A stretch of 64,000 nt of DNA from Deltaproteobacteria bacterium HGW-Deltaproteobacteria-19. GTDB lineage: Bacteria > Desulfobacterota > Syntrophia > Syntrophales > PHBD01. The notes beneath the pieces were generated by a model that made no database searches, was not told where the DNA came from, and saw nothing but the letters and a program-made list of their open reading frames with translations. Positions 19,923-44,066 of this stretch are shown here, in pieces. Made by a program: the position numbers and the translations under genes. Numbering within the stretch: the stretch's first letter is position 1; each line of letters starts with the position of its first letter. The DNA lies in the NCBI GenBank assembly GCA_002841865.1, contig PHBD01000008.1, forward strand, positions 149,955-213,954, given 5' to 3'.

Positions 19923-20756
19923 GTGTCGTACAAAATGCAATCCGGGAAATTCTACCGAATGCCTGTGATTTTCGGTCCCAGTCTGGGGCCCAGGCAGCAG
20001 GGATCGAGCCATGCGCTCTTCAGCAAGGATGCTCCCAAGGCCACCGTTATCACGGTCCGCTTCCGCACGGACCCCGCACAACTGGAGGCCCTGCTTCCGG
20101 ACGGCTTCTCGGTCCGAGCGGAGCCGGTCGTTTCCGTTCGGGCCACATACCTGAAGGAAATACCCTGGCTGGCGGGGCGCGGGTATAATCATCTGGGGCT
20201 TTCCTTCCCCGCCATGTTCAAGGGGAAGCGCGATTCCGTTGCGGGGGATTTCCTGACGGTGCTCTGGGAAAACCTCTGCGATCCGATCATTACGGGTCGG
20301 GAAGATCTGGGCTATTCGAAGATTTACTGCGAATTGCCGGAGCCGCTCGTTTATGCGGGCACGACACACTGCACCGCTTCCTGGCTGGGCTTCAAATTCA
20401 TGGATCTGCGCGTCTCCGACCTGAAAGTCCCCACGCCCGAGGAGGCCTCTGCGCTTACCGATCCAGGGTCCGAGGGCGTTCTTCATTTCAAGTACATGCC
20501 CCGCACGGGCGAGTGGGGAACTGCCGATGCGGCATACGCGACGCTGACGCCGTATCAGGATCCCAACAAGACCGTGACTGAACGATGGGTGGGGGATGGA
20601 TCGGTGAAATTCCATGAGGCGACGTGGGAGGAACTGCCCACGCTCTACAATATCATCAATATATTTCATGCCTTGGAAGTCCGGGAGTGGCTGGGAGCCA
20701 GCATCTTGAAAACTGTCGGAGCCAAGGATTACAGCGACCAGCGCATTCTTTTGTAG
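19923..20756 (+). CDS. Acetoacetate decarboxylase family protein
   Basis: Conserved fold text (VRFRTDPAQLEALLPDGF...EIPWLAGRGYNHLGL...GREDLGYSKIYCELPEP); GTG start with GAGGAGG RBS. Confidence 0.75.
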   Translation: MSYKMQSGKFYRMPVIFGPSLGPRQQGSSHALFSKDAPKATVITVRFRTDPAQLEALLPDGFSVRAEPVVSVRATYLKEIPWLAGRGYNHLGLSFPAMFKGKRDSVAGDFLTVLWENLCDPIITGREDLGYSKIYCELPEPLVYAGTTHCTASWLGFKFMDLRVSDLKVPTPEEASALTDPGSEGVLHFKYMPRTGEWGTADAAYATLTPYQDPNKTVTERWVGDGSVKFHEATWEELPTLYNIINIFHALEVREWLGASILKTVGAKDYSDQRILL

Positions 20757-20767
20757 TCTTCCCCCCC

Positions 20768-20823
20768 ACGCCTCACTCCTCAGGATTTACCTCCTTGCCG
20801 GCGGGCTTTTTCCGAAACCGTCT
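20768..20823 (+). repeat. Half copy (right arm) of the 126-bp palindromic element
   Basis: acgcctcactcctcaggatttacctccttgccggcgggctttttccgaaaccgtct aligns gap-free with the right 56 bp of the 28310-28435 element; starts 12 nt after the TAG of the previous CDS. Confidence 0.75.
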
Positions 20824-27594: not shown

Positions 27595-28308
27595 ATGGCC
27601 GGATTTGAGTACACTCTTGACGGGACGGTTGCAGTTCTCACCATGAATGACGGCGAAAACCGCATCAACTTGTCGTTTGTCCAGGAATTTCTGGCGGTCC
27701 TGGACGAGATCGAGCAGAAAACGGAAGCAAATGCCCTCATTCTCCGCTCTGCCCATGAGAAAATTTTCTCCAACGGGATCGATATTGAATGGATCATGGG
27801 GGTCGTCGGCAGGAACGACCTCCCGACGGCGGCACAGTTTTTTGTTGCCCTCGACGTTCTCCTGAAGCGCCTTCTTCTCTATCCCATGCCCACGATTGCC
27901 GTCATGAACGGCCACACATACGCCGGCGGGGCGATCCTGTGCTGCTGTTTCGACTTCCGGTTCATGAGATCCGACCGGGGCTTTTTCTGCTTTCCCGAGG
28001 TGGATATCGGGATCCCCTTCTGGCCGGGTATGGTGGCCATCATGAAAAAGGCCATCCCCAGGTACAAGCTCGATGAAATGTATTACCTGGGAAAGCGGCT
28101 GACCGCGGCGGAATGCGAGGCGCACCACATCGTCAGCAAGGCCTGCCCGGTCGGCTCGCTGGACGGGGAGGCATTGAGCTTCGCGAAGGGCCTCAACAAG
28201 AAGCGTGCGATCTATGCGATCATGAAGGCCCGCATGAACGCCGACATCGTCCGGATCATCGACACGGAGGATCAGGAACTCATACAGTCAGGACAATTGC
28301 TCGCCTGA
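27595..28308 (+). CDS. Enoyl-CoA hydratase/isomerase family protein
   Basis: [66 protein letters not shown]. Confidence 0.85.
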
Positions 28309-28309
28309 A

Positions 28310-28435
28310 GACGACCCCGGAAAAAGCCCGGATGCCGCGTTGCGCTTCATCCTTCGTCGCTGCGGCGTACAGAAAGAGTACGCCTCACTCCTCGGGATTT
28401 GCGTGCCTTGCCTGCGGGCTTTTTGCGAGGTCGTC
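28310..28435. repeat. 126-bp palindromic repeat element, full copy A
   Basis: Termini GACGACCCCGGAAAAAGCCCG and CGGGCTTTTTGCGAGGTCGTC are imperfect inverted repeats; central hairpin GGCGTAC-N7-GTACGCC; about 87% identical by eye to 43941-44066. Confidence 0.88.
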
Positions 28436-28531
28436 GTAAGATCCGGGATTCGGGGCAGATTTCAATCTGCTCCCGCGCCCCAAACAAACCGCTTCGTTGC
28501 GGGACTCAAGCCGCCCTCGTTCAACAGCTTG

Positions 28532-42740: not shown

Positions 42741-43934
42741 GTGTTTGTCGATTTCTTCTATACCCTCCGGGACCGGGGAGTTCCCGTCAAGCCCACGTCC
42801 TTTCTGAAACTCCAGAAGGCGCTGGGGATGGGGCTTATCTGCTCCGTCGAGGACTTCTACACCGCCGCTCGGTCGATTCTGGTGAAGAGCGAGCGGTACT
42901 TCGATACCTACGACCAGGTGTTCGCCCACTACTTCCGGGGGGTGGTCCTGCAGGAACCGGAGGACGCGGAGCTGTCCGAGATGGCCCGGGCCCTCCTGGA
43001 GGAGTGGCTGAAGAGTCCCGAGGACGTCGCGGCGGCCCTGGGGATCGAACAGGAGAAACTGGCGCAGATGACCCCGGAGGAGCTGCTCCGGTACTTCTTC
43101 GACCGTCTCAAGGAGCAGACGAAGGCCCACCACGGAGGCAACCGGTGGATCGGCACGAAGGGGACCTCACCGGTGGGGAACTCCGGGGACCACCCGGGAG
43201 GAATGCGGGTCGGAGGACGCTCACGGAACAAGTCGGCCATCAAGGTGGCCATGGAGCGACGCTATCGGGACTATTCCCAGGAAGGCCCCCTGACGGAGAA
43301 CCAGATCGGCGAGGCCCTGAAAAAGCTGCGCCGGATGACCCCTGCCGGGCCCCGGGACGTGGTGAACATCGACAAGACCATCTACGAGACAATGCGCAAC
43401 GGAGGCGAGATCGACATCGTCTTCGATCGCCGCCTCAAGGACCGCCTCAAGATCATCCTCATGATCGACAACGGCGGCTGGTCCATGGATCCCTACGTGG
43501 CCATCGTCCAGACCCTCTTCAACTACGCCCGTAGCCAATTCAAGGACCTGACCATCTATTATTTCCACAACACCCTGTACAGCCGGGTCTGGCTGGACCC
43601 CCAGCGGTTCAGGAAGGCTGAGGTCCTCGAGGAATTCATCCGGAAGGATCCGGAGACCCGCCTGATCTTCGTGGGCGACGCCAGCATGGCTCCCTACGAG
43701 CTGATGCACACCAATGGCTCCATCTATGTCGACCAGAAGGAGCACCAGGCCAGCGTCGACCGGCTGAAGTTCCTCTCCCGAACCTTCCGGCATGCCGTGT
43801 GGCTGAATCCCCAGACGGAAGACGAGTGGGGCTACACCTGGACCGTCGGGGTCATCCGGCAGGTCTTCCCGATGTTCGAGCTGTCGCTGGACGGGCTGGA
43901 TAAGGCGGTTCAGTACCTGATGTCCCGCCATTGA
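42741..43934 (+). CDS. VWA domain-containing CoxE-like protein
   Basis: RDYSQEGPLTENQIGEALKKLRRM..., KIILMIDNGGWSMDPYVAIVQTLFNYARSQFKDLTIYYFHNTLY; directly downstream of moxR. Confidence 0.85.
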   Translation: MFVDFFYTLRDRGVPVKPTSFLKLQKALGMGLICSVEDFYTAARSILVKSERYFDTYDQVFAHYFRGVVLQEPEDAELSEMARALLEEWLKSPEDVAAALGIEQEKLAQMTPEELLRYFFDRLKEQTKAHHGGNRWIGTKGTSPVGNSGDHPGGMRVGGRSRNKSAIKVAMERRYRDYSQEGPLTENQIGEALKKLRRMTPAGPRDVVNIDKTIYETMRNGGEIDIVFDRRLKDRLKIILMIDNGGWSMDPYVAIVQTLFNYARSQFKDLTIYYFHNTLYSRVWLDPQRFRKAEVLEEFIRKDPETRLIFVGDASMAPYELMHTNGSIYVDQKEHQASVDRLKFLSRTFRHAVWLNPQTEDEWGYTWTVGVIRQVFPMFELSLDGLDKAVQYLMSRH

Positions 43935-43940
43935 TTGTGG

Positions 43941-44066
43941 GACGACCTCGCCAAAAGCCCGGATGCTGCGTTGCGCGGCATCCTTCGTCATTGCGGCGTA
44001 CGGACAAAGTACGCCTCATTCCTCAGGATTTGCGCGCCTTGCCTGCGGGCTTTTCTCGAGGTCGTC
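43941..44066. repeat. 126-bp palindromic repeat element, full copy B
   Basis: Same length, termini (GACGACCTCG...CGAGGTCGTC) and central GGCGTAC-N7-GTACGCC hairpin as copy A; begins 7 nt after the VWA gene stop. Confidence 0.88.

Follow-up and report, generated by a model that had tools for sequence, protein, structure and literature searches.

Palindromic repeats behind stop codons in a deltaproteobacterial genome as probable members of a MITE family

The 126-bp palindromic repeats that lie just behind stop codons in the 64-kb window (the whole stretch of 64,000 nucleotides analysed here) most probably belong to a family of MITEs, short DNA transposons that are non-autonomous and depend on a DDE transposase encoded elsewhere. 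The two full copies, A and B, and the half copy, C, would be old members of this family, the history of A and B being less sure than the nature of the family. The placing of palindromic repeats behind stop codons then has a simple explanation, in which the stop would be supplied by element and target and the remaining insertions would be removed by selection, so that neither recognition of gene ends nor a terminator role is needed. A repeat of Deltaproteobacteria and Nitrospirae that had been uncharacterised is now tied to candidate mobilisers, of the IS5 and possibly the IS1182 families, and has testable boundaries in its defined ends and 4-bp duplications.

Results

Copies A (28310-28435, + strand) and B (43941-44066, + strand) form the longest direct repeat of the window, 126 nt in both cases and 87% identical in an ungapped alignment. 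The left foot of A (28310-28330, +) consists of GACGACCCCGG, an A-tract and GCCCG, the right foot (28415-28435, +) of CGGGC, a T-tract and GCGAGGTCGTC, and the outer helix that they form covaries across the family. The central hairpin, GGCGTAC-AGAAAGA-GTACGCC in A (28364-28384, +) and GGCGTAC-GGACAAA-GTACGCC in B (43995-44015, +), lies within a conserved core, and its columns are near-invariant in 46 copies. Both copies fold far more stably than dinucleotide shuffles on both strands (z -4.3 to -6.4, 0/200 shuffles), and a scan of the window against Rfam 15 gave no family match above the gathering score. Copy C (about 20768-20823, +) comprises the right half of the element only. All three follow a stop codon closely: A begins 1 nt after the TGA of an enoyl-CoA hydratase gene (28306-28308, +), B 6 nt after the TGA of a VWA/CoxE-like gene (43932-43934, +) and C 11 nt after the TAG of an acetoacetate-decarboxylase-like gene (20754-20756). 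The gaps around A, between two enoyl-CoA hydratase genes, and around B, between the VWA/CoxE-like gene and an isochorismatase gene, are convergent, while that around C is co-directional. The preliminary description, made from the letters of the window, therefore holds for the length and identity of A and B, their terminal inverted repeats and central hairpin, the single long imperfect hairpin, the half copy matching the right arm, the short distance to a stop and the convergent setting of the full copies. The spurious reading frame that it ascribed to the repeat is also real (28113-28439), and serves as a warning that repeats of this kind give rise to spurious short ORFs.

The further copies that the same description called for were readily found. 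Matches by blastn number 25 in the genome itself (3.98 Mb in 87 contigs) and 28 in its sister species, and a covariance model of the family, built from 46 copies, matches 62 and 61 sites, respectively. Across the order, the model has matches in 24 of 41 genomes, ten of these having at least 10 copies; the assemblies of the genome itself (G000) and of most relatives are drafts. An exact core pattern recovered at least 117 stretches from public genomes, mostly MAGs of Deltaproteobacteria (Thermodesulfobacteriota), with some Nitrospirae and the isolate Desulfosarcina cetonica, these counts not being independent because many of the copies come from few MAGs and were fetched by that pattern. A search of plasmid and phage records for the family gave no match, and literature queries with element sequence strings returned nothing relevant. 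Dispersed copies can be 97-99% identical at separate loci, and median pairwise identity is 0.67 in the genus compared with 0.87 and 0.91 in two MAGs. The F-end pattern described below occurs 174 times in the copy-richest MAG (G041, 2.9 Mb), and its reversal not once.

It is the copies outside the genus that reveal the anatomy of the element. In MAG copies a second right terminal repeat follows the hairpin after a short spacer, and with this repeat taken as the end the younger copies are mostly 147-174 bp long. A complete copy would thus run from a left terminal repeat through a conserved imperfect-palindrome core of ~95 bp to a first right repeat and, 10-40 bp further on, the second right repeat. 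Two types of end are found. F-type ends (CAGGYTGYTGAAAAA) have YTAR duplicated (CTAG, TTAA, TTAG or CTAA), while G-type ends, TGACGRCYTCG (TGACGRCYTCGNAAAAA), as carried by A and B, have any 4 bp duplicated (ATAT, AGAC, GAAT, TAGT, AGGC, TGAA and others). Both terminal inverted repeats, F or G, were found in 62 copies. Of the 118 copies in which a right terminal repeat is present, 26 have flanks duplicated exactly for no fewer than 4 bp, compared with 4.5% for shuffled flanks (P about 2e-11). In the favoured model F-type ends insert at YTAR, duplicating it, and G-type ends duplicate 4 bp on insertion. Consensus F and G copies have the core in common from the A-tract to the T-tract, and their ends differ.

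Terminal inverted repeats, a short target duplication, tens of near-identical copies and the lack of a transposase gene are all features of MITEs, and all are found family-wide. At A and B themselves only the hairpin feet are seen, with no target duplication. Indeed, among the own-genus copies examined none combines a second right end with a convincing target duplication, so the membership of A and B rests on the common core and the left end. An autonomous IS with the same ends is available for the F type and, for the G type, at one end only. The YTAR duplication of an IS5-derived MITE is seen in F-type copies alone, and A and B are not filed under that class, their ends being of G type. Some copies (L162/L182 and L187) are chimeras in which one foot is of G type and the other of F type, which suggests that ends have been exchanged by recombination through the common core. 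At L143:1503-4299 two G-type ends stand 2.8 kb apart around several genes with AACT on each outer side, a pair that may mark a composite unit or may be fortuitous.

The IS carrying F-type ends was located through a PF13751 search in the genome itself (L310:1316-2652, contig C13). It is a single-copy, 1,337-bp IS5-family element whose F-type ends stand in YTAR flanks (CTAG-CAGGCTGTTGAAAA...TTTTTCAACAGCCTG-CTAA) that differ by one base (CTAG/CTAA). Its transposase has DUF772 and DDE_Tnp_1 domains in two frames, a split that may be a programmed frameshift or decay, with IS5 as the best NCBIfam model; the sister genome contains a weak match to it of 34 residues. A YTAR duplication is reported for IS5 (PMC10359306) and is also made by F-type copies, but the repeats are non-autonomous, mostly 147-174 bp long and have only ~15 bp of end in common with the IS. 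It is plausible, from the matching ends, that the L310 element mobilises F-type copies in trans. G-type copies may likewise be moved by an IS1182-like transposase: in G028 a G-type end (TGACGCCCTCGTAAAAAG) adjoins the 3' end of an IS1182-model transposase gene, although this is one end only, the other lying beyond the contig, and no target duplication is seen there. The copy-richest MAG has no PF01609, PF13751 or PF01797 hit. PF01609 loci were considered as TIR-flanked partners in 11 genomes and dropped, none of four loci having matching ends, and pairs of ends separated by 0.6-3.5 kb and sharing a 4-bp flank proved not to be transposons.

The position next to stop codons is not peculiar to the window. 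With genes called by a home-made hexamer caller in ~0.9 Mb of the genome itself and its sister, the left foot lies between -15 and +10 nt from a same-strand stop at 33 of 48 sites, where random intergenic placement and orientation would give 2.6% (P about 4e-41). Among 26 hits in order-level relatives, 21 of the 23 testable left ends are at a stop. A caller-free count, in which a stop had to be preceded by at least 80 open codons, places the left foot at a stop in 29/43, 44/93 and 12/16 copies and the right foot of the hairpin in 2/43, 4/93 and 2/16, the first set being that of the two genus genomes. Enrichment after stop codons, as anticipated in the preliminary description, is therefore strong.

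These counts first suggested an oriented mechanism that recognises stop codons, a reading that we dropped because YTRR also precedes the left end of copies that have no long upstream ORF (26/42 F-type and 14/24 G-type, compared with a background of 3%). It is further contradicted by opposite-strand stops at the true right end, ~28 nt past the hairpin: of the 62 copies that retain a true right end, 28 have a stop at the left end and 17 at the right, a difference that is not significant (P 0.14). Stop offsets are mainly 0 (the TAA or TAG of YTAR) and +11 (an internal TGA) for the F type, and mainly +3 (the TGA tip) and +14 (an internal TAA) for the G type, pointing to a stop supplied by the element or its target. 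As YTAR or YTGA also stands at left ends without a long ORF, the stops come from the target together with the ends, and not from recognition of gene ends. An IS200/IS605-like tetranucleotide target, also considered, was superseded by the finding of target duplications. The proposal of a non-autonomous mobile element that targets 3' ends can thus be kept in its first part, through the terminal repeats, 4-bp duplications and candidate IS partners seen across the family; of its second part the stop adjacency stands and the recognition of gene ends does not. Left ends also occur at a Shine-Dalgarno-like CCTCCTTTAG upstream of an opposite-strand gene (L164:9033-9388, L191:9628-9699, L108 and other public copies), so that 5' regions are used too.

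In the resulting model stops would be built into the insertion, as TAA or TAG in YTAR, as the TGA that starts the G-type end and as a further stop at +11 or +14. An element arriving at the stop codon of a gene, or in the final codons before it, would close the reading frame at once, do little harm because its ends and preferred target contain stop codons, and so survive, whereas insertions within genes would be purged by selection. The placement at stop codons would then follow from built-in stops and purging together. A filled site (L185) and an empty one (L224) distinguish the sister species where two genes overlap at TGA/ATG, and the TGA stop has been kept there; the two also differ by the gain or loss of a tandem copy and, at some sites, in the end type that they carry. 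Copies A and B have orthologues in the sister species at the same site and stop (L174:8589-8715 and L175:5112-5237, respectively). Common to both species, and without second right end or target duplications, they would be relics, and we infer that they are fixed remnants. The left-right asymmetry in the genus (29 compared with 2 of 43) is explained only in part by the MITE model, since true right ends have been lost there.

Discussion

The other function offered for these repeats is to end transcription from both sides as intrinsic terminators, or to stabilise mRNA 3' ends, which would make them exapted elements kept at gene ends by selection. Such a role would suit an A-tract, GC stem and T-tract on both strands, convergent gaps and starts beside stops, and gains from strong covariation in the outer helix, where 16 of 31 pairs have changed on both sides (0/500 shuffles). 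However, a terminator scan flags neither A nor B, with other terminator-like sites downstream, and where a terminator has a short GC hairpin with a loop of 3-8 nt before its T-run, the stem before the T-run here encloses ~80 nt. In the sister orthologues both T-tracts are broken (CTTTTT to TTATTT; CTTTTC to CTTATC), including that of A at L174. The compensatory changes that were to be looked for are thus present across family copies, in the outer helix, but between orthologues the changes are mostly uncompensated: in eight orthologue pairs outer-stem changes are one-sided in 14 cases and both-sided in 5, and 4 of the latter belong to a single diverged pair. A.C mismatches (23) outnumber G.U pairs (10) on the + strand, which is not the mark of selection on a + strand RNA, and elements are about as similar between orthologues (0.71-0.99) as the coding DNA upstream (0.86-0.94). 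Our first reading of the covariation as RNA selection is countered by the orthologue comparison and the A.C excess, and a role as terminator or stabiliser now seems improbable. The covariation is more readily explained by palindrome correction, or by the importance of structure or end identity while the element spreads, than by selection on RNA at sites already occupied. It may be, though we would not favour it, that the outer-stem changes stem from quasi-palindrome correction by template switching and not from selection for structure; the arms are complementary across copies, yet orthologues at single sites change mostly one-sidedly. Against this, end swapping accounts for some of the covariation, since the end types correspond to the ends of different ISs. 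Strong covariation can in any case make such repeats mimic conserved regulatory RNAs.

Two known systems that place palindromes behind genes are further removed. A REP-like element of the GTAG or CGTC superfamily, moved by a RAYT (Y1) transposase, would likewise be an extragenic palindrome 3' of genes, oriented and in tandem clusters; the core does contain CGTC (..TTCGTCGCTGCGGCGTAC), and CGTC REPs are similarly without a dedicated transposase (PMC3733652). We nonetheless rejected this origin as very unlikely. PF01797 is absent from both genus genomes (G000 and G001) and from the copy-richest MAG, RAYT/Y1 genes are rarer in genomes with at least 10 elements (4/10 compared with 25/31, P 0.04), and among the loci checked no Y1 gene is flanked by the element. 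Furthermore, 4-bp target duplications are unexpected from Y1 transposition, and in place of a 20-40 bp unit with an unpaired GTAG or CGTC end tag there is a 126-bp unit with CGTC inside the core. Low-scoring Y1_Tnp frames, mostly ~180-195 aa and unflanked, were noted in five element-rich MAGs (L273, L274, L276, L277, L286-L288). An integron attC, the recombination site that directly follows each cassette's stop codon and is oriented with the gene, would be of comparable size, palindromic and in the same oriented position. This identity was also rejected, and its chance of being correct is negligible, since no integron integrase scores above cut-off in G000 or G001 (TIGR02249; best 89.8 and 91.6 bits, compared with 265), the copies are dispersed and many are not behind genes, and by eye there is no RYYYAAC...GTTRRRY arrangement.

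The MITE reading brings the repeats closest to Coxiella QMITE and Geobacter uraniireducens Chunjie, as described in PMC10969869: these are also short, non-coding, intergenic elements with terminal inverted repeats, target duplication and tens of copies. Chunjie, with a reported length of 178-235 bp, overlaps in host range within the Deltaproteobacteria, and truncated copies of QMITE2 come to look REP-like, as do A and B (PMC10969869). As far as descriptions allow comparison, notably for Chunjie, our family is distinguished by its doubled right end and by a single core that can carry either of two end types. REP superfamilies resemble it as extragenic palindromes 3' of genes that form clusters and RNA hairpins (PMC3733652), but it is longer, has terminal repeats with 4-bp duplications and has no RAYT in the genus. 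By their description, the multicopy sequences catalogued without mechanism in Geobacter metallireducens and G. bemidjiensis (PMC2700814, PMC2996986) are likewise intergenic palindromic families of Deltaproteobacteria. That one core, much alike from A-tract to T-tract throughout Deltaproteobacteria and Nitrospirae, bears ends of two unrelated kinds, each matching a different IS family, raises the unlikely idea that the core rather than the ends is the selected replicator, a structured DNA or RNA parasite that repeatedly captures new transposase ends and brings its own stops. Self-supplied stop codons would then make gene tails a safe harbour.

Several loci are more complex than a single element. 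Tandem second copies begin ~131-141 bp past the stop (L153, L156, L162, L169, L171, L181 and others), and at L186 the stop codon is part of a 21-bp direct repeat whose second copy stands beyond the element. A second palindrome, GGGGACAGA-N5-ATCTGTCCCC, lies 3' of the element in L186 (9656-9679) and occurs once in L164 (651-674), and is possibly a second repeat family.
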